DNA from: Flavivirga amylovorans
Lineage (GTDB): Bacteria > Bacteroidota > Bacteroidia > Flavobacteriales > Flavobacteriaceae
DNA: 64,000 bases
Reading direction: 5' to 3'
Assembly (NCBI RefSeq): GCF_030540875.1
Contig: NZ_JAUOEM010000006.1
Coordinates: 124,001-188,000, forward strand
The position numbers and the translations under genes are program-made. Positions 3,270-11,430 of the stretch are shown here, piece after piece. Each line of letters starts with the position of its first letter. Position 1 is the first letter of the stretch. Under the pieces are notes generated by a model, which was given only the letters and a program-made list of their open reading frames with translations, made no database searches and was not told the DNA's origin.

Positions 3270-3815
3270 TTAATTTAAAAAATGCTTAACTTCTGTTTCT
3301 AATGCTTCATAAGTAAATGATCCTTCAAAAAACTTATTATTGTCATTTCTATATATTATAGTTGCTGGTATGGCTCCAGACCAATCTTTACTCACTTTTG
3401 GTATCCACGTGTCCATATCTACATCATCTAAAGCTATTACTTTAGATTTCAATTTTCTTTCTTTAATAAACGGCTTTAGTTTAGATTCATATAAATGCGG
3501 AAAATCCAAACTCACCAAAATAACCTCAACATTCTTATCACTATACTGTCCTCTTAATTTTTCAAAATATGGTAGTTCCTTTACGCAAGGTGCGCACCAA
3601 GTAGCCCAAAAGTTAATAACATATATTTTATCATCTTTCCTATTCAGGAATTTTTTAAAACCATTATAGTCGTAAACTTCTAATTCAATGTCATTTAAGC
3701 TAACATCATCACTAATTTCTTTCTTAGCGATGACTACACTTTTATCAACAGTTTTATTCTCATGCTTGCAACTTGTTATTATCAATATTGCAATGATTAA
3801 TAGTTTTAATTTCAT
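3270..3815 (-). CDS. TlpA-like thioredoxin-family lipoprotein
   Basis: The frame opens earlier, but the start at 3815 places a proper lipoprotein signal at the N-terminus, with lipobox I-T-S-C and Cys16 lipidated; the longer version would bury it. The 181-residue product has a thioredoxin fold with active site W-C-A-P-C (Cys74, Cys77) preceded by N-F-W-A-T, the TlpA/ResA signature, and a cis-Pro segment A-I-P-A-T. Such lipoproteins reduce disulfides in periplasmic proteins, for example during cytochrome or cell-wall protein maturation. It is divergent from the trp leader region. Confidence 0.87.
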   Translation of the reverse strand: MKLKLLIIAILIITSCKHENKTVDKSVVIAKKEISDDVSLNDIELEVYDYNGFKKFLNRKDDKIYVINFWATWCAPCVKELPYFEKLRGQYSDKNVEVILVSLDFPHLYESKLKPFIKERKLKSKVIALDDVDMDTWIPKVSKDWSGAIPATIIYRNDNNKFFEGSFTYEALETEVKHFLN

Positions 3816-3891
3816 AGCATTAAATTTAATTAATACTTCATTGTTTATATTACAGTTTAACAAACTTTTATATAAAAAATGTTTTAAACTA

Positions 3892-3922
3892 TTGTGTATT
3901 TATATTTTCATTTCTATATTTG
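3892..3922 (+). promoter_or_regulatory. Predicted trp operon promoter
   Basis: TTG (3892-3894), 20-bp spacer, then TATATTTG (3915-3922), a full match to the Bacteroidota TAnnTTTG -7 element with correct spacing. Transcription would begin near 3929, about 13 nt before the leader peptide start. Confidence 0.75.
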
Positions 3923-3941
3923 AACCAATTAAAAGTATAAA

Positions 3942-3998
3942 ATGAATATAATTTTAAATAATACTTGGTGGTGGAGCTTCAGAAACTTACGTTCGTGA
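3942..3998 (+). CDS. trpL: Putative trp leader peptide with three consecutive Trp codons
   Basis: A short ORF encodes MNIILNNTWWWSFRNLRS. Three adjacent TGG codons (3966-3974) in 18 residues, just downstream of a good promoter and upstream of an intrinsic terminator and trpE, is the arrangement of a transcription attenuator leader peptide. The Trp codons lie in a segment (GGT, GCTTC) that can pair weakly with GAAG-AAACC at 3997-4006. Ribosome stalling at these codons under Trp shortage would free 3993-3999 (TCGTGAA) to pair with TTCACGA at 4047-4053 inside the terminator. No Shine-Dalgarno is expected in this phylum. Confidence 0.78.
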   Translation: MNIILNNTWWWSFRNLRS

Positions 3999-4031
3999 AG
4001 GAAACCTAGTATATTTAAAACTTAAAATATC

Positions 4032-4065
4032 AAAAAAGGCTTGTCATTCACGACAAGCCTTTTTT
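4032..4065 (+). terminator. trp attenuator terminator
   Basis: A6-GGCTTGTC, loop ATTCAC, GACAAGCC-T6: a perfect 8-bp GC-containing stem with a six-T tail, between the leader peptide (ends 3998) and trpE (4152). No other gene ends here on the plus strand, so its natural role is to stop leader transcripts when Trp is plentiful. Confidence 0.85.
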
Positions 4066-4068
4066 AAT

Positions 4069-4151: not shown

Positions 4152-5555
4152 ATGACAACATATAATTTATACACGCATTACAAAAAAATTCTGGCAGATA
4201 CTATTACTCCAGTAAGCATCTACCTAAAAATCAGAGATAAATACCCTAATAGCATTCTACTTGAGAGTAGTGATTATCATGCAAACGATAATAGTTTTTC
4301 GTATATCTGCTTTAATCCAATAGCTTCTATTAAAGTTGAAAATGATGTTATTAGTCAAACGTTTCCTGATGGAAGTTCATTAGAAAAAACAATAACAGAT
4401 CATATTGATGTTTCAGAAGAAATTCATCAATTCACAAAACGATTTGATGTTAACTCTGATACTGAATTTAAATTCATTAACAATGGTATTTTTGGCTATA
4501 TAGCGTATGATGCAGTTCGTTATTTTGAAGATGTTGATATTTCTAAAAAAGATGATTCAATACATATTCCTGATGTTTACTATGCTGTTTATCAAAATAT
4601 CATTGCTATAAATCATCATAAGAATGAAGCCTATATTTTTGCACATTGTCACGACACTGAAAACAATATCGATGAGATAGATCATTTAATCAAAGTAAAA
4701 AACTTTGCATCCTACAACTTCTATTCAAAAGGAGATATCACATCTAATTTAACGGACGATGAATATAAAACACATGTCGAGCTAGCAAAAAAACACTGTG
4801 CACGAGGCGATGTATTTCAATTGGTATTATCAAAGAGCTTCGCACAAGAGTTTAAAGGTGATGAATTTAATGTATATCGTGCTTTACGAAGTATAAATCC
4901 GTCTCCCTACTTATTTTATTTTGATTACGGAAACTTTAAGATTTTTGGTAGTTCGCCAGAAGCACAGCTTATTGTAAGCGATAATAAAGCTGAGATTCAC
5001 CCTATTGCAGGAACGTTTAAGCGTACAGGAAATGATTCTCAAGATGCCGAATTAGCTAAAAAACTAGTAAAAGACGATAAAGAAAATGCAGAGCATGTTA
5101 TGCTTGTGGATTTAGCGAGAAATGATTTAAGCAGGCATGGAAGTCATGTTAGTGTAGATACTTATAGAGAAGTTCAGTTTTTCTCCCACGTTATTCATCT
5201 AGTAAGTAAAGTTACTGGTCAAAAACACAAAGACACATCAACGATGCAAGTTGTTGCAGATACATTTCCTGCAGGTACTTTAAGTGGTGCTCCAAAACAC
5301 AGAGCAATGCAACTTATTGAACAATACGAAAAAACAAGCCGTTCTTTTTACGGGGGTGCCATTGGTTTTATGGACTTTGAAGGTAATTTTAATCATGCCA
5401 TTATGATTAGAACCTTTTTAAGCAAAAACCACAAACTACATTGGCAAGCAGGAGCAGGATTAGTTTCAAAATCTAATTCAGAAAACGAATTACAAGAAGT
5501 ATATAATAAATTAGGGGCATTAACAAAAGCTATTAAATTAGCTGAAGAAATATAA
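4152..5555 (+). CDS. trpE: Anthranilate synthase component I
   Basis: A 467-residue enzyme with the N-terminal anthranilate synthase I domain and the C-terminal chorismate-binding domain. Conserved chorismate-site motifs are visible: I-A-G-T-F-K-R-T-G, L-V-D-L-A-R-N-D, G-T-L-S-G-A-P-K and Y-G-G-A-I-G-F. It converts chorismate to anthranilate using ammonia supplied by TrpG (5845-6411). It is the first structural gene after the leader and attenuator. Length is typical for Bacteroidota TrpE. The 289-bp gap to trpG is unusually long for this operon and is filled by repeat-like sequence. Confidence 0.97.
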   Translation: MTTYNLYTHYKKILADTITPVSIYLKIRDKYPNSILLESSDYHANDNSFSYICFNPIASIKVENDVISQTFPDGSSLEKTITDHIDVSEEIHQFTKRFDVNSDTEFKFINNGIFGYIAYDAVRYFEDVDISKKDDSIHIPDVYYAVYQNIIAINHHKNEAYIFAHCHDTENNIDEIDHLIKVKNFASYNFYSKGDITSNLTDDEYKTHVELAKKHCARGDVFQLVLSKSFAQEFKGDEFNVYRALRSINPSPYLFYFDYGNFKIFGSSPEAQLIVSDNKAEIHPIAGTFKRTGNDSQDAELAKKLVKDDKENAEHVMLVDLARNDLSRHGSHVSVDTYREVQFFSHVIHLVSKVTGQKHKDTSTMQVVADTFPAGTLSGAPKHRAMQLIEQYEKTSRSFYGGAIGFMDFEGNFNHAIMIRTFLSKNHKLHWQAGAGLVSKSNSENELQEVYNKLGALTKAIKLAEEI

Positions 5556-5844
5556 GAGGAGTTAATTAAGTAATAAAATGTATAAATATAAATCAATCTT
5601 GAAATTCCGGCACAGTCGGAAAAGTCAAAATTAAGAAATAATGAGTGAAGGAATGGAGATGCAAAACAAAGCTTTAAGCACGTAATTCCGGAAGCGAATG
5701 GTGCTTCAGCAATTTCCTGATTTTTGACATGATTTTTGGCTTGGTTAATCCTGAGCGTAGTCGAAGGGTTTTGTATCAAGACAAAATGAATAAAGAAAAG
5801 TTTAACTAAAAATAGATTCCTGCCTTCGCAGGAATGACAAAAAG
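5556..5844. repeat. trpE-trpG spacer made of palindromic repeats
   Basis: The 289-bp gap has no credible gene. It holds TTCCG-N7-CGGAA near 5605, a GCAC-N-GTGC structure around TTCCGGAA near 5680-5705, a CCTGAGCGTAGTCGAAGG unit near 5751-5768 related to the repeat that brackets the gene at 37367, and a 20-bp palindrome ending just before trpG (5816-5835). These have the character of REP-like intergenic repeats. Confidence 0.7.
5816..5835. repeat. 20-bp palindrome of the ATTCC...GGAAT family
   Basis: ATTCCTGCCTTCGCAGGAAT, a hairpin with loop CTTC, followed by GACAAAA and nine bases later by the trpG start. The same 20-bp layout and GAATGACAAAA tail recurs before trpB. Confidence 0.85.
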
Positions 5845-6411
5845 ATGATAAAAGTATTAGTTATAGATAATTACGACAGCTTCACATATAATTTGGTTCA
5901 TTATTTAGAAGATTTAAATTGTGACGTCACTGTTGTCAGGAACGATAAATTGGCTTTAGATGATGTAGAGCCATTCGATAAGATCGTATTATCACCAGGC
6001 CCTGGTATCCCAGATGAAGCAGGCTTGTTGAAACCTATTATTAAAAGGTTTGCACCTACTAAAAGTATTTTAGGAGTTTGCCTAGGGCAACAAGCCATTG
6101 GTGAAGTATTCGGAGGGTCACTCATCAATTTAGATGATGTATATCATGGCGTTTCAACAAATGTGACTATTAGTGTTGATGACGAACCTATTTTTAAAGG
6201 TTTAGAAAAAAACATAGAAGTTGGTAGATATCACTCTTGGGTAGTTAATCCTGATTTACCAGATAGTTTGGAAGCCACTTCCTTTGATGAAAACGGACAA
6301 GTGATGTCTCTTCGTCATAGAGTTTATGATGTAAAAGGTGTGCAATACCATCCTGAATCGGTATTAACTCCTAACGGTAAAAAGATATTAGAAAACTGGC
6401 TGAATAGTTAA
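5845..6411 (+). CDS. trpG: Anthranilate synthase component II (glutamine amidotransferase)
   Basis: A 188-residue class I glutamine amidotransferase. The triad is visible: Cys79 in G-V-C-L-G-Q-Q and His169/Glu171 in Y-H-P-E-S. The N-terminal D-N-Y-D-S-F-T-Y-N-L and the S-P-G-P-G oxyanion segment are those of TrpG/PabA. It hydrolyses glutamine and channels ammonia to TrpE. In this phylum the same subunit may also serve PabB; the operon position favours the trp role. The start at 5845 follows a palindromic repeat directly. Confidence 0.96.
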   Translation: MIKVLVIDNYDSFTYNLVHYLEDLNCDVTVVRNDKLALDDVEPFDKIVLSPGPGIPDEAGLLKPIIKRFAPTKSILGVCLGQQAIGEVFGGSLINLDDVYHGVSTNVTISVDDEPIFKGLEKNIEVGRYHSWVVNPDLPDSLEATSFDENGQVMSLRHRVYDVKGVQYHPESVLTPNGKKILENWLNS

Positions 6412-6480
6412 TAACAGTTAATAGTACTCAGTAGCAGTAGGCAGTGCTTACTCAAACGAAACATATATATTAATTAAAAC

Positions 6481-6526
6481 ATTTCTCTCCCTTTGGGAGA
6501 GATGTCGTAAAACGACAGAGAGGGTT
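6481..6526. repeat. Palindromic repeat before trpD
   Basis: CTCTCCC-TTT-GGGAGAG followed by GTCGT-AAA-ACGAC and AGAGAGGGTTA, ending at the trpD start. Two stacked hairpins without coding potential, fitting the pattern of repeats in every long trp spacer. The preceding bases (6421-6445) carry degenerate CAGTAGCAGTAGGCAGT units also seen at 7521-7542. Confidence 0.75.
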
Positions 6527-7519
6527 ATGAAAAACTTATTAAACAGACTTATAAATCACGAAAGCATCTCAAGTGAAGAAGCTAGACAAGTATTGGTAAA
6601 CATATCTAACGGTATGTATAACCAGAGTCAAATTGCATCTTTTCTAACCGTTTTTATGATGCGAAGTATTACACTAGAAGAGTTGCGTGGTTTTAGAGAT
6701 GCCCTTTTAGAATTATGTATTGCTATAGATTTAAAAGATTTTAATGCTATAGATCTCTGCGGAACTGGTGGCGATGGAAAAGACACTTTTAATATCTCAA
6801 CCCTATCATCATTTGTATCGGCTGGTGCTGGTATAAAAGTAGCAAAACATGGTAATTACGGGGTGTCTTCTGCTTGTGGATCTTCAAACGTCATGGAACA
6901 TTTAGGTATTAAATTTTCTAATGATGAAGATTTCTTAAAACGCTCCATCGACAAGGCTGGCATCTGTGTTTTACACGCACCTTTATTCCATCCTGCCATG
7001 AAAAATGTAGCACCTATTCGTCGCGAATTAGGTGTTAAAACATTTTTCAACATGCTAGGTCCTATGGTAAATCCGTCATTTCCTAAAAATCAAATGGTGG
7101 GAGTCTTTAATTTAGAATTGTTGCGTTTATACGGTTATCTATATCAAAATACTGACAAAAATTACAGTATCGTTCATGCATTAGATGGTTACGACGAAAT
7201 TTCTTTAACTGGAAATACTAAAGTTATTTCTAATAACTCTGAAACCATGTTTTCACCAGAAGATTTAGGAATTTCAGCAATTACTCAAGAATCTATTTTT
7301 GGAGGAAACACAGTTGAAGATGCCGCTAGAATATTCATAAATGTGATTCAAGGAAAAGGAACAGAACCACAAAACAATGTCGTTTGTGCCAATGCAGGTT
7401 TAGCTATAGCAACAACAAAACAAATTAGTCATAAAGAAGGGTTTGAGCAAGCTAAAGAATCGTTGCTTTCCGGAAAAGCAAAAGCAAGTTTAGATACATT
7501 AATAGAAATGAGTAAATGA
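6527..7519 (+). CDS. trpD: Anthranilate phosphoribosyltransferase
   Basis: A 330-residue enzyme joining anthranilate to PRPP. The PRPP-binding loop C-G-T-G-G-D-G-K-D-T-F-N-I-S-T and the second motif K-H-G-N-Y-G-V-S-S-A-C-G-S-S are intact, as is the anthranilate-site R-R-E-L-G-V-K-T-F-F-N. Length is normal for the family. It is separate from TrpG, unlike the enteric fused form. The start at 6527 overlaps the end of a palindromic repeat, and the 64-bp gap to trpC carries degenerate CAGT-rich repeat. Confidence 0.96.
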   Translation: MKNLLNRLINHESISSEEARQVLVNISNGMYNQSQIASFLTVFMMRSITLEELRGFRDALLELCIAIDLKDFNAIDLCGTGGDGKDTFNISTLSSFVSAGAGIKVAKHGNYGVSSACGSSNVMEHLGIKFSNDEDFLKRSIDKAGICVLHAPLFHPAMKNVAPIRRELGVKTFFNMLGPMVNPSFPKNQMVGVFNLELLRLYGYLYQNTDKNYSIVHALDGYDEISLTGNTKVISNNSETMFSPEDLGISAITQESIFGGNTVEDAARIFINVIQGKGTEPQNNVVCANAGLAIATTKQISHKEGFEQAKESLLSGKAKASLDTLIEMSK

Positions 7520-7520
7520 T

Positions 7521-7583
7521 AGTTAGCAGTATGCAGTCTGCTCACTAAATACTGATTACTGAACACCGAACAGAATACAAAAA
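7521..7583. repeat. Degenerate CAGT-rich repeat in trpD-trpC spacer
   Basis: AGTTAGCAGTATGCAGTCTG and ACTGATTACTGAACACCGAA form a low-complexity segment like the one between trpG and trpD (6421-6445). No gene or hairpin terminator is visible. Confidence 0.5.
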
Positions 7584-8369
7584 ATGACCATACTAGATAA
7601 AATAGTGAAAGATAAACGTCAGGAAGTTAACCTCCGTAAAGGCCTGATTCCTGTAATGCAATTAGAACAATCTGTTTTGTTTGAAAGAAAAACAGTTTCT
7701 CTGGCTAACAACTTAAGACAAAGCGAATCGGGCATTATTGCAGAACATAAAAGACGTTCACCGTCAAAATCAGTCATAAATCAAAGCTTAAACGTTCAAG
7801 ACGTAGCAAAAGGCTATGAAGATGCAGGAGTTTGCGGTATGTCCGTTTTAACCGATGGGAAATATTTTGGAGGATCTTTAGACGACTTATTGCTTGCTAG
7901 AGCTAGTTGTAATTTACCATTACTTCGTAAAGAATTTATAATAGACGAATATCAACTACTAGAGGCGAAAGCATACGGTGCAGATGTTATTTTATTAATA
8001 GCTGCTATTTTAAGCAGAGAAGAAATCAAACAATTTTCAGAATTTGCAAAAAGCCTGAACTTAGATGTTTTATTAGAAGTCCATAACGAACAAGAACTTC
8101 ATAAATCTGTTATGCCTTCATTAGATATGTTAGGTGTGAATAATAGAAATTTAAAAACCTTTGAAGTTAGTTTGGAAACCAGCAAAACATTAAGTGCCCT
8201 TATTCCAACTGATTTTGTTAAAGTTTCTGAGAGCGGTATTAGTAATATTGAAGCTATTAAAGAATTAAAACCCTACGGGTATCAAGGTTTTTTAATAGGT
8301 GAAAACTTTATGAAAACAGATAATGCTGGTGAAAGTGCCAAACATTTTATAAAAGATTTACAATCATGA
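7584..8369 (+). CDS. trpC: Indole-3-glycerol phosphate synthase
   Basis: A 261-residue TIM-barrel enzyme closing the indole ring. Diagnostic segments are E-H-K-R-R-S-P-S-K (substrate and catalytic lysine), L-R-K-E-F-I-I-D, G-V-N-N-R-N-L and the phosphate-binding V-S-E-S-G-I. Length is typical of the monofunctional enzyme. Its stop overlaps the start of trpF by four bases (ATGA at 8366-8369), which indicates translational coupling. Confidence 0.96.
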   Translation: MTILDKIVKDKRQEVNLRKGLIPVMQLEQSVLFERKTVSLANNLRQSESGIIAEHKRRSPSKSVINQSLNVQDVAKGYEDAGVCGMSVLTDGKYFGGSLDDLLLARASCNLPLLRKEFIIDEYQLLEAKAYGADVILLIAAILSREEIKQFSEFAKSLNLDVLLEVHNEQELHKSVMPSLDMLGVNNRNLKTFEVSLETSKTLSALIPTDFVKVSESGISNIEAIKELKPYGYQGFLIGENFMKTDNAGESAKHFIKDLQS

Positions 8370-9034
8370 AACTGAAAGTTTGTGGAATGAAATATGAAGA
8401 TAATATAACTCAAGTTGCAAACTTGCTTCCTGATTATCTTGGATTTATATTTTATAAAAAATCGGCACGACATCTAAATGGTAGTATTCCGAAATTGCCT
8501 GAGTCTATTAAAAAAGCAGGCGTTTTTGTAGATGAAAGTTTAGAAAACGTCATCGAGCAAATAAATACACATCAACTACATGCAGTTCAATTACACGGAA
8601 AAGAAACGCCAGAATACTGTGATGCTTTGCGTCATGCTGAACTAGTTTCGGCATCTCATAAAAAGAACCAGAAACAAGTTCAGGTTGAGATAATCAAAGT
8701 ATTCTCTATCAAAAACGAATTCAATTTTGAAATTTTAAAACCTTACGAAGACGTTTGTGATTACTTTTTATTCGATACGAAAGGGAAGCTTCCTGGAGGT
8801 AATGGCTATACGTTTGATTGGAATGTATTGAATCAATATCCATCAACAAAGCCTTTCTTTTTAAGCGGTGGTATTGGATTAGATCAAGTTGAAGACATTA
8901 AAAAATTTAAACGAAGTGACGCTTCAAAATATTGCTATGCCTTAGATGTGAATAGCAAATTCGAAATAGAACCTGGATTAAAGAATATAGAAAAATTAAA
9001 AGAATTTAAAAAGCATTTGTCATTCCGTACTTGA
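8366..9034 (+). CDS. trpF: Phosphoribosylanthranilate isomerase with an in-frame repeat insertion
   Basis: A 222-residue TIM-barrel isomerase with catalytic Cys6 (K-V-C-G-M), V-Q-L-H-G near residue 74, the F-D-T-K-G segment with the catalytic Asp, and the C-terminal L-S-G-G-I-G phosphate site. The family is usually about 205 residues. The excess is in residues 89-107, R-H-A-E-L-V-S-A-S-H-K-K-N-Q-K-Q-V-Q-V, encoded by a palindromic repeat (8631-8689) inserted between Y-C-D-A-L and E-I-I-K-V-F-S. The last five codons and the stop come from another palindrome (9022-9042). All catalytic residues remain, so activity is likely. Confidence 0.93.
   Translation: MKLKVCGMKYEDNITQVANLLPDYLGFIFYKKSARHLNGSIPKLPESIKKAGVFVDESLENVIEQINTHQLHAVQLHGKETPEYCDALRHAELVSASHKKNQKQVQVEIIKVFSIKNEFNFEILKPYEDVCDYFLFDTKGKLPGGNGYTFDWNVLNQYPSTKPFFLSGGIGLDQVEDIKKFKRSDASKYCYALDVNSKFEIEPGLKNIEKLKEFKKHLSFRT
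8631..8689. repeat. REP-like palindromic element inside trpF
   Basis: CTGAACTAGTTTC on the left and GAAACAAGTTCAG on the right form an inverted repeat with one mismatch. The outer and inner flanks (CATGCTGAACT, AGAACC) are shared with a reverse-oriented element inside the methyltransferase gene at 59234-59313. It is in frame and adds about 19 residues. Confidence 0.85.
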
Positions 9035-9042
9035 TACGGAAT
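9022..9042. repeat. Palindrome containing the trpF stop codon
   Basis: ATTCCGTA-CTTGA-TACGGAAT: an 8-bp stem whose loop holds the TGA stop of trpF (9032-9034). Related to the 20-bp palindromes at 5816, 9073, 10296 and 10627. Confidence 0.85.
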
Positions 9043-9072
9043 CCATTATAAATTATAACTAAAGTTAAACAG

Positions 9073-9092
9073 ATCCCCTCCTTCGAGGGAAT
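9073..9092. repeat. 20-bp palindrome before trpB
   Basis: ATCCCCTCCTTCGAGGGAAT, loop CTTC, followed by GACAAAAA. It differs from the palindrome at 5816 in the stem but keeps its loop, length and tail. An ATG formed by its end (9091) gives a spurious earlier start for trpB. Confidence 0.85.
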
Positions 9093-9102
9093 GACAAAAA
9101 AT

Positions 9103-10287
9103 ATGAAAAATTACAACGTAAACGAAAAAGGATATTATGGTGAATTTGGGGGTGCTTATATTCCTGAAATGCTATATCCCAATGTAGAAGAGTTACGCCA
9201 AAACTATCTTAAAGTCATGGCAGAACCTGAATTTAAAAAAGAATTTGATCAACTTTTAAAAGATTATGTGGGACGTCCTTCCCCACTCTACTTTGCTAAA
9301 CGCCTTTCAGAAAAATATAATACCAAAATTTATTTAAAACGTGAAGATCTTAACCACACAGGAGCTCATAAAATAAATAATACTATTGGTCAAATACTCA
9401 TGGCCAAACGTCTGGGTAAACATCGTATTATAGCCGAAACTGGTGCAGGACAACATGGTGTTGCTACAGCTACCGTTTGTGCTCTAATGGGGTTAGAGTG
9501 TATTGTTTATATGGGTGAAATCGATATTAAAAGGCAAGCACCAAATGTTGCCAGAATGAAAATGTTAGGAGCTACCGTAATCCCTGCGCTTTCTGGAAGT
9601 CGCACTTTAAAAGATGCTACTAACGAAGCCATTAGAGATTGGATCAACAACCCAGTAAACACACATTATATTATAGGTTCTGCAATAGGACCTCATCCTT
9701 ATCCAGATATGGTTACCAAGTTTCAATCTGTTATTTCAGAAGAAATTAAATGGCAGTTAAAAGAACATGAAGGTCGAGAAAACCCAGATTACGTTGTTGC
9801 TTGTATTGGAGGAGGAAGTAATGCTGCTGGCACCTATTACCATTATTTACATGAAGACGATGTTAATATTATTGCTGTAGAAGCTGCTGGTTTAGGAGTA
9901 GATTCTGGAGAAAGTGCTGCTACATCTGTTTTAGGAAAAGAAGGTATTATACACGGCTGTAAAACCTTATTAATGCAAACAAACGACGGTCAGATAACTG
10001 AGCCTTATTCCATTTCTGCAGGTTTAGATTATCCTGGTGTAGGCCCTATGCATGCACATTTATGCAAAACAGGCCGTGCAGAATTTATGGCAATCACAGA
10101 CGATGATGCTATGACATCCGGATTAGAATTATGTAAATTAGAAGGTATTATTCCTGCTATAGAAAGCTCTCATGCACTAGCTATTTTCGAACATAAAACA
10201 TTTGAACCCGACGATGTTATTGTAATGAGTTTATCTGGTAGAGGTGATAAAGATTTGAATACATACATAAATTATTTTAATTTATGA
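9103..10287 (+). CDS. trpB: Tryptophan synthase beta chain
   Basis: A 394-residue PLP enzyme (TrpB1 type) joining indole and serine. The PLP lysine is Lys90 in H-T-G-A-H-K-I-N-N; the phosphate loop G-G-G-S-N-A-A-G and the E-T-G-A-G-Q-H-G segment are intact. The start at 9103 is preferred to the in-frame ATG at 9091 because the latter is formed by the GGAATGACAAAA end of a palindromic repeat also found before trpG. TrpB and TrpA (10666-11430) form the alpha2-beta2 complex with an indole tunnel; here the two genes are separated by an inserted GIY-YIG gene. Confidence 0.96.
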   Translation: MKNYNVNEKGYYGEFGGAYIPEMLYPNVEELRQNYLKVMAEPEFKKEFDQLLKDYVGRPSPLYFAKRLSEKYNTKIYLKREDLNHTGAHKINNTIGQILMAKRLGKHRIIAETGAGQHGVATATVCALMGLECIVYMGEIDIKRQAPNVARMKMLGATVIPALSGSRTLKDATNEAIRDWINNPVNTHYIIGSAIGPHPYPDMVTKFQSVISEEIKWQLKEHEGRENPDYVVACIGGGSNAAGTYYHYLHEDDVNIIAVEAAGLGVDSGESAATSVLGKEGIIHGCKTLLMQTNDGQITEPYSISAGLDYPGVGPMHAHLCKTGRAEFMAITDDDAMTSGLELCKLEGIIPAIESSHALAIFEHKTFEPDDVIVMSLSGRGDKDLNTYINYFNL

Positions 10288-10295
10288 TTTTTTGT

Positions 10296-10315
10296 ATTTC
10301 CGTGAAGACGGAAAT
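10296..10315. repeat. 20-bp palindrome left of the GIY-YIG gene
   Basis: ATTTCCGT-GAAG-ACGGAAAT, a perfect 8-bp stem nine bases after the trpB stop and 13 bases before the nuclease start. Confidence 0.8.
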
Positions 10316-10327
10316 CGCATAAATGAA

Positions 10328-10612
10328 ATGGATATCCATTATGTTTACATACTAACTAATAAAAATCACACGACATTATATGTTGGTAGATCAAAACAAT
10401 TGAAACAACGTTTAGTACAACATAAAAATAATAATTTAAAAAGTTTTACTGGAAAATATAATGTAAACAAGTTAGTATATTTTGAGACAACCAAATATGT
10501 AAATAATTCTATAAAGCGAGAAAGGCAAATAAAAAAATGGAATCGAGAATGGAAAATCAATCTGATAAACAGTTTGAATCCTGACTGGAAGGATCTTTCA
10601 GAATATATTTAA
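10328..10612 (+). CDS. GIY-YIG nuclease-domain protein inserted in the trp operon
   Basis: A protein of 94 residues from the ATG at 10328 (an upstream in-frame start at 10292 lies before and within the palindrome and is less likely). It reads H-Y-V-Y-I-L-T-N then L-Y-V-G-R-S-K-Q-L-K-Q-R-L-V-Q-H, the GIY-YIG core with the catalytic Arg, then the Y-F-E-T and E-R-Q-I-K-K-W segments typical of the UPF0213/YhbQ-like single-domain branch. A DNA nuclease role is a family-level inference. It splits trpB from trpA and has a palindrome on each side (10296-10315, 10627-10646). A paralogue sits in the kynurenine cluster (37367-37687). Confidence 0.85.
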   Translation: MDIHYVYILTNKNHTTLYVGRSKQLKQRLVQHKNNNLKSFTGKYNVNKLVYFETTKYVNNSIKRERQIKKWNREWKINLINSLNPDWKDLSEYI

Positions 10613-10626
10613 ATTAAAATTAAAAG

Positions 10627-10646
10627 ATTCCCTCCTACTAGGGAAT
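10627..10646. repeat. 20-bp palindrome right of the GIY-YIG gene
   Basis: ATTCCCTCCTACTAGGGAAT, that is ATTCCC-N8-GGGAAT, between the nuclease stop and trpA. Same size and layout as the palindromes at 5816 and 9073. Confidence 0.8.
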
Positions 10647-10665
10647 AAAAAAATTCATTCACACA

Positions 10666-11430
10666 ATGAACAGAATAAATCAAAAACTACAAGAAAATAA
10701 GAAGTTACTTTCAATATACTTCACAGCAGGTTATCCGAGTATTAATGATACCGTTTCCATCATACAAAAATTGGAAAAAAATGGTGTTGACATGATCGAA
10801 ATAGGACTTCCTTTTAGCGACCCTTTAGCAGACGGCCCAACCATTCAAACAAGTTCTACACAGGCTTTAAAAAATGGCATGACAAGCGAGATTCTTTTTG
10901 ATCAATTAAAAGACATCAGACAATCGGTTACTATTCCTTTAATCATCATGGGGTATTTTAATCCGATGTTTCAATATGGTGTTGAAGCGTTTTGTAAAAA
11001 ATGTCAGGAAATCGGAATTGATGGTTTAATAATACCTGATTTACCAGTAGATGTGTATCATGAAAAGTACCAGGCTATTTTTGAAAAATATGGCTTAATA
11101 AATGTGTTTTTAATAACACCACAAACCAGTGATGAGCGTATTCGTTATATCGATTCCATTTCAGACGGTTTTATTTATATGGTTAGCAGTGCAAGTACAA
11201 CAGGCGCCAAAGTCGGTTTTGGAGAAGAACAAACCCAATATTTTGAACGCATAGGAAGTATGAATCTTAAAAACCCACAAATTGTTGGTTTTGGCATCAG
11301 TAATAATCAAACGTTCACACAAGCCACCCAATATGCAAAAGGAGCTATTATTGGAAGTGCTTTTCTAAAACATGTTACCAACCAAGGAGTAAACAGTATT
11401 GACAAATTTGTAAAATCTATATTAAATTAA
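10666..11430 (+). CDS. trpA: Tryptophan synthase alpha chain
   Basis: A 254-residue TIM-barrel lyase that releases indole from indole-3-glycerol phosphate. Catalytic Glu45 (I-E-I-G-L-P-F-S-D-P) and Asp56 (L-A-D-G-P) are present, as are L-I-I-P-D-L-P-V and the phosphate site G-F-G-I-S. Length is slightly shorter than the enteric 268 but normal for Bacteroidota. It ends the trp operon; a membrane protein gene follows after 12 bp and could be co-transcribed. Confidence 0.96.
   Translation: MNRINQKLQENKKLLSIYFTAGYPSINDTVSIIQKLEKNGVDMIEIGLPFSDPLADGPTIQTSSTQALKNGMTSEILFDQLKDIRQSVTIPLIIMGYFNPMFQYGVEAFCKKCQEIGIDGLIIPDLPVDVYHEKYQAIFEKYGLINVFLITPQTSDERIRYIDSISDGFIYMVSSASTTGAKVGFGEEQTQYFERIGSMNLKNPQIVGFGISNNQTFTQATQYAKGAIIGSAFLKHVTNQGVNSIDKFVKSILN

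Follow-up and report, generated by a model that had tools for sequence, protein, structure and literature searches.

A short element at the leader stop codon as the probable antiterminator of the Bacteroid-trp attenuator in Flavivirga amylovorans

What decides whether RNA polymerase enters the tryptophan operon of Flavivirga amylovorans? The question is raised by a locus within a stretch of 64,000 nucleotides of contig NZ_JAUOEM010000006.1 (positions 124,001 to 188,000), hereafter called the window, where trpE (4152-5555, plus strand) is the first gene of an operon trpE-G-D-C-F-B-(GIY-YIG ORF)-A spanning 4152-11430, as assigned with Pfam. The best TrpE match of the window among the best 80 loci by TrpE protein is that of Flavivirga rizhaonensis (97% identity). 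A sequence-only reading of the locus had placed promoter boxes, an 18-residue ORF with three adjacent Trp codons, and a terminator ending in T6, in this order, before trpE, and the coordinates of these parts are confirmed in the sequence (Table 1). It had also proposed that a heptamer at the end of the leader ORF could act as an antiterminator by pairing with the terminator, with the caveat that the mechanism may differ from the classical one. The answer given here, to which we assign a probability of about 0.8 on the basis of sequence comparisons and folding models, is that the locus, as a member of the RNA family RF01692, is a ribosome-mediated transcription attenuator of the trp operon with an antiterminator formed between the stop-codon element and the terminator apex.

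Table 1. Features of the trp leader region (positions in the window)
Feature	Positions	Strand	Details
Bacteroidota-type promoter, promoter-like boxes	3892..3922	+	TTG 3892-3894, N20, TATATTTG 3915-3922; read in sequence
RF01692 Bacteroid-trp match	3922..4045	+	cmscan 57.9 bits, gathering score 49; model 1-131 of 131, ends in terminator 5′ arm
Leader ORF	3942..3998	+	MNIILNNTWWWSFRNLRS-stop, 18 residues; ATG 3942, TGG TGG TGG 3966-3974, TGA 3996-3998
Predicted P1/P2 leader hairpin	3952..4020	+	Minimum free energy fold: P1, 3952-3969 with 4004-4020; inner pairs 3977-3981 with 3996-4000 (P2) and 3984-3986 with 3991-3993; hides the element
Putative antiterminator element TCGTGAA	3993..3999	+	Overlaps leader stop codon; TCGTGA in 181 of 189 unique family loci
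Intrinsic terminator	4032..4065	+	A6 4032-4037, GGCTTGTC 4038-4045, loop ATTCAC 4046-4051, GACAAGCC 4052-4059, T6 4060-4065
Partner TTCACGA of the element	4047..4053	+	Within loop and 3′ arm of the terminator; 181 of 189 unique family loci have TCACGA at the apex

The attenuator of the window is a member of the catalogued family RF01692 (Bacteroid-trp), which the sequence-only reading did not name and of which its own genome contains one copy. Besides the over-threshold score, it shares with this family the 5′ arm of the terminator and the leader ORF with Trp codons (here WWW) placed directly before the trp genes, as expected for RF01692. A leader hairpin of the family's layout is predicted as its minimum free energy fold, and in the covariance-model alignment 14 positions of the window sequence (about 7 model pairs) are non-standard. 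In contrast, the 3′ arm of the terminator and the pairing of the element with the apex lie outside the model, whose 131 positions stop in the 5′ arm. Other Rfam hits in the window (Atu_C9 and others) all fell short of their gathering thresholds and were put down to resemblance to a terminator. Within the same bacterial family, RF01692 was found in 208 of 299 genomes at E ≤ 0.001 (184 of them over the cut-off), in a phylum-wide draw in 42 of 395 genomes, and in draws around matching genomes of other orders in 12 of 149, 35 of 121, and 12 of 101.

In the literature, the motif table of Weinberg et al. 2010 (PMC2864571) lists Bacteroid-trp with an Rfam accession, which is the only occurrence of the name in the matched parts of the main text; the family is named in one discussion passage on Flavobacterium psychrophilum (PMC6414381), and a remark in PMC9723704 concerns leader-peptide attenuation before amino-acid operons. 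Among open-licence papers, in the matches listed, neither a printed mechanism for RF01692 nor a paper describing an antiterminator between the element and the apex was found. The part that seems to have gone unrecorded is the antiterminator itself, which is very short, overlaps the stop codon, and has the loop and 3′ arm of the terminator as its target.

Loci selected with the RNA model would have been counted for the model's own features; therefore, the TrpE protein was chosen as an anchor, and the best 80 loci were taken as a set independent of RNA similarity. Of these, 78 are evaluable: L187 starts inside trpE and L139 inside the leader (TCGTGA and the terminator are present on the L139 contig). 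Scripts parsed 76 of the 78, and L135 and L148, whose leader start is TTG, were read by eye. From the RF01692 matches, loci of 130 of the 208 matching family genomes (30 + 100) were used, with phylum-wide and other-order loci added. The leader/terminator scripts left L055, L069, L080, L092, L098, L109, L116, L135, L139, L148, L187, and L235 unparsed, and in the other-order set L235, L262, L270, L279, and L284. Removed were the mis-parsed L097, the repeat copies L232, L234, L236, L238, L239, L277, L294, and L299, and the window's own copy L001; merging of identical leader-apex pairs reduced 274 loci to 238. They comprise 189 unique loci of the window's bacterial family, found by the RNA model or by TrpE, 36 loci from other orders of the same class (group B), and a group of 12 (the L288-L299 group); L241, the sole locus from another family of the same order, stands outside the three groups.

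The expectation that relatives carry Trp-rich leaders at this site is borne out: a leader with a Trp run followed by a terminator is present in all 78 evaluable trpE-anchored loci (WWW in 76, WW in two), and among the 189 unique family loci WWW occurs in 186 and WW in three. A TAnnTTTG box lies no more than 45 nt upstream of codon -8 relative to the first TGG in 181 of the 189 loci, compared with 2 of 99 when a stretch 100-145 nt upstream is taken as control. In 52 unique loci (e.g., L006, L007, L047, and L113) the last such box ends at most 8 nt before the leader start used, and because of this proximity the mRNA from which the leader ORF is translated may be leaderless, or nearly so, in these loci. 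As for other ORFs in the operon, the small GIY-YIG ORF of the window (PF01541; 10292-10612, plus strand) is located between trpB and trpA; ORFs resembling it were seen by eye between the attenuator and trpE in L169, L183, L184, and L186, and it is possibly a recurrent insertion into the trp operon.

The transcript 3925-4068, which includes the terminator, folds with -37.1 kcal/mol, against -18.5 ± 3.2 kcal/mol in 200 shuffles, none of which was as good (z -5.8). The exact pattern GGCTTGTC-N3-10-GACAAGCC occurs at a single place in the own genome, which speaks against a repeated generic terminator. In the relatives the terminator is conserved, with a few compensated changes in its stem (GACTTGTC/GACAAGTC and GGCTTATC/GATAAGCC), and this is what the covariation check suggested along with the sequence-only reading has yielded.

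Central to the proposed switch is the element TCGTGAA, all seven bases of which are complementary to TTCACGA at the terminator apex. Its core TCGTGA begins 26 nt after the first TGG in six, 27 nt in 133, and 28 nt in 42 of the 189 family loci, the exact motif being absent in eight, while shuffled windows contain it in 55 of 9450 cases. In the trpE-anchored set, 75 of the 78 loci have TCGTGA, the exceptions being L189, L190, and L191, and 76 have TCACGA at the apex, the exceptions being L162 and L189. Of the 181 family loci with TCGTGA, 105 use the TGA of the element as leader stop codon, 33 have the stop upstream of it, and 43 have it downstream. Because the position of the stop varies, the reading of the element varies too (Ser-stop, read through as Phe-Val-Asn, or untranslated) with the bases constant; thus TCGTGA is kept at the RNA level, regardless of reading frame. 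The stop always lies within -11 to +8 nt of the first base of the element, so that a terminating ribosome should cover it. The leader frames of L249, L257, and L268 stop 31, 20, and 28 nt beyond the element, unlike those of the other loci parsed alongside; frame shifts, assembly errors, or differently terminating leaders may account for these long frames.

Outside the window's own family, the element changes together with its partner. In group B, GUCGUAAG occurs with CUUACGAC and GUCGUGAG with CUCACGAC, and compensations in single loci are UUGUGAG/CUCACAA (L258), CCGUGAG/CUUACGG (L259), and GUGAGUA/UACUCAC (L257). Contiguous pairing scores of 6 or more were obtained for 186 of the 189 family loci (shuffled mean 22.6, highest 32), for 25 of 36 in group B (mean 5.2, highest 9), and for 5 of 12 in the L288-L299 group (mean 1.9, highest 6). 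When apices were swapped among loci, by permutations that take no account of relatedness, the native duplexes of group B (n = 36) averaged -13.21 kcal/mol versus -11.62 ± 0.30 kcal/mol for swapped ones, and those of all 59 non-canonical loci -11.38 versus -9.33 ± 0.28 kcal/mol, with none of 5000 swaps as good in either case. Covariation is weak inside the window's own bacterial family, where the swap test on 14 non-canonical loci is not significant by energy (398/5000; 194/5000 by contiguous pairs), and the 12 loci of the L288-L299 group give no swap signal (2745/5000). Eight control comparisons, with other leader segments or with the apex reversed, gave z between -2.4 and +1.3, one of them reaching -2.4. 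The proposed pairing of 3993-3999 with 4047-4053 as an antiterminator is thus supported by its conservation and by its co-change in distant relatives. In Flavobacterium-type loci, a possible second pairing of AAGC with GCUU of the 5′ arm was noticed by eye.

Before the terminator is transcribed, the element is predicted to be engaged elsewhere, in a leader hairpin that the sequence-only reading leaves unmentioned. The pre-terminator RNA of the window (3942-4031) folds with -17.7 kcal/mol versus -11.4 ± 2.5 kcal/mol for shuffled sequences (z -2.5; 2 of 200 shuffles as good), and the minimum free energy fold of this part of the leader pairs the element with upstream bases in 189 of 189 family loci, 34 of 34 in group B, and 11 of 11 in the L288-L299 group; 186, 34, and 11 of these folds, respectively, have a P1 of 6 bp or longer. 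RNAalifold, applied to 190 sequences aligned with MAFFT, gave the terminator only and not P1/P2, so that support for the leader hairpin comes from per-sequence folds and the Rfam model. Masking of the 5′ side up to TGG1+18 still leaves the element with at least three paired nucleotides in 108 of 189 loci.

Stepwise folds indicate when the competing structures could form. RNAs cut 2 or 3 nt into the 3′ arm were folded with masks for two ribosome positions. A mask for a ribosome stalled on the Trp codons, its footprint ending at TGG1+15, puts the antiterminator into the minimum free energy fold of 190 of 190 family sequences, of 24 and 31 of 36 in group B, and of 7 of 12 in the L288-L299 group (7-8 of 12 over the stall-masked folds of that group); a mask for a ribosome at the stop codon does so in only 5 and 4 of the 190 family sequences, in 2 and 3 of the 36 in group B, and in 1 and 2 of the 12 in the L288-L299 group, respectively. 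The antiterminator fold of the window consists of 7 + 2 + 3 bp, with -10.3 to -10.8 kcal/mol. Once 8 nt of the 3′ arm are out, the stall mask leaves the antiterminator in 28-71 of 190 folds, depending on the footprint, and when the whole hairpin and the U run are out, the terminator prevails in 185-190 of 190, the stall mask notwithstanding. At equilibrium the completed terminator is thus favoured, so the switch must be kinetic. With no ribosome, the antiterminator appears in 76 and 88 of 190 intermediate folds, and is absent from those of the window itself, which means that hiding of the element by P1/P2 may be incomplete in many species.

The following course of events is suggested. In the nascent leader, the P1/P2 hairpin would hide the element UCGUGAA. 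With charged tRNA-Trp available, a ribosome would proceed to the stop codon and cover the element, the terminator would form, and RNA polymerase would stop before trpE. If tRNA-Trp is uncharged, the ribosome would stall on the UGG codons and open P1/P2, and the freed element could capture the emerging terminator apex before the 3′ arm is complete, allowing transcription to continue; this would require that the element engages the tip first or delays nucleation of the hairpin. Without translation, P1/P2 would keep the element hidden, and transcription would stop. Most likely, therefore, on this model the switch turns the trp operon on when ribosomes are short of tryptophan. We further consider it reasonably likely that RF01692 in general works via such a compact, previously undescribed antiterminator, in which an element of 6-8 nt at the leader stop mimics the apical 5′ arm and loop complement and invades the terminator from the loop and 3′ arm. 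On this reading, the leader hairpin or a terminating ribosome conceals the element and a Trp-stalled ribosome releases it, its place is independent of frame, and in at least one lineage the pairing has moved to the 5′ arm.

The most serious alternative is that attenuation is real but employs the usual antiterminator, in which the leader pairs with the terminator 5′ arm and the pairing with the loop plays a secondary part. Something of this kind is indeed seen in the L288-L299 group, where the best pairing involves mostly the 5′ arm and loop (e.g., UGUGGCAA with UUGCCAUA), as it does in the his leaders described below, and in the window itself the antiterminator fold comprises, besides the 7-bp loop pairing, CCU/AGG and GA/UC contacts that involve the 5′ arm. 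In L241, which also has a WWW leader, CAAAGTCTT can by eye be paired with the complementary AAGACTTTG of the 5′ arm, and such a shift of the pairing to the 5′ arm may, judging from this sequence, have happened more than once. However, in the window's family and in group B it is the loop and 3′ arm that the conserved, frame-independent block complements, and a control segment (TGG1+40 to +74) gives no signal against the apex (z +1.3), which leaves this explanation unlikely.

Two other explanations deny the apex pairing any role. UCGUGA might owe its conservation solely to its role as the 3′ strand of P2; its match to the apex would then be incidental, and the switch would consist of P1/P2 alone or of ribosome-polymerase coupling. 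In favour of this, each of the 234 folds examined pairs the element with bases upstream of it, and the intermediate folds without a ribosome are ambiguous. Yet the apex UCACGA is as well conserved as the element (181/189) and co-changes with it in other orders, so we regard this account as very improbable. Scarcely credible is the view that the palindrome is a plain terminator with no tie to trp control and the short ORF noise. In a generic sigma-70/terminator scan of the window, the palindrome figures as a terminator for the minus strand only, against the direction of trpE, and no plus-strand promoter is listed; the plus-strand terminator was possibly missed because the T6 that follows the GC stem pairs with A6. 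Against this view, relatives anchored by trpE only conserve the WWW leader, the spacing, and the apex, and the gene upstream (3270-3863), encoded on the minus strand, points away from the palindrome. The preferred reading, an attenuator with the element-apex antiterminator, turns RF01692 into a concrete three-state switch testable by a few compensatory changes, and it would allow the Rfam model to be extended through the terminator. It also suggests a rule for other amino-acid attenuators in the phylum: an element at the stop codon with its complement in the terminator.

Candidates for such attenuators exist before other amino-acid genes, with leader peptides at hisG in relatives and at pheA both in relatives and in the own genome; in PMC9723704, structured 5′ elements at pheA and hisG are, in the passage concerned, given without Rfam hits. 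ORFs with a His run (e.g., MNFIQLHHHFHICSQAK) are located upstream of hisG in L303, L310, L313, L315, L316, L319, and L322, with TCTCAAGC near the stop complementing GTTTGAGA in the 5′ arm and loop of the terminator, and by their sequence they are likely his attenuators; before hisG of the own genome (L304), the script found no His-run leader. Upstream of pheA in the own genome (L345:1292-1372), a Phe/Tyr-rich leader ORF MTTVYYTYFNNWFYFFFSKRDEALYV is followed by a terminator GAGTCTCGAT-gaaa-ATCGGGACTT, and CGAGGC near its end can by eye be paired with the 5′ arm; this sequence is likely a phe attenuator. These candidates share with the trp leader a short ORF rich in the cognate residue and a terminator after it, and several his loci also have a complementary element near the stop. 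They differ in the target, the his element being directed at the 5′ arm and loop, the phe element at the 5′ arm, and the trp element at the loop and 3′ arm.

The enteric trp attenuator, as in E. coli trpL, combines adjacent Trp codons in a leader peptide with masking by a ribosome at the stop codon and with mutually exclusive leader, antiterminator, and terminator structures, and its antiterminator is a long separate 2:3 hairpin. The window has the run of Trp codons in a short leader ORF and the intrinsic terminator between leader and trpE, and stop-codon masking and mutually exclusive structures are predicted for it as well. In place of the classical 2:3 pairing with the terminator 5′ arm, its 7-bp block uses the loop and 3′ arm, in keeping with the caveat that the mechanism may not be the classical one, and the same holds for the conserved pairing in this lineage. 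This makes an attenuator identical to the enteric type less likely and does not affect the conclusion, drawn from the model, that it most likely works like enteric attenuation. In the classical terms, region 2 would here be the stop-codon element of 6-8 nt, and region 3 the terminator loop with the apical parts of its arms.
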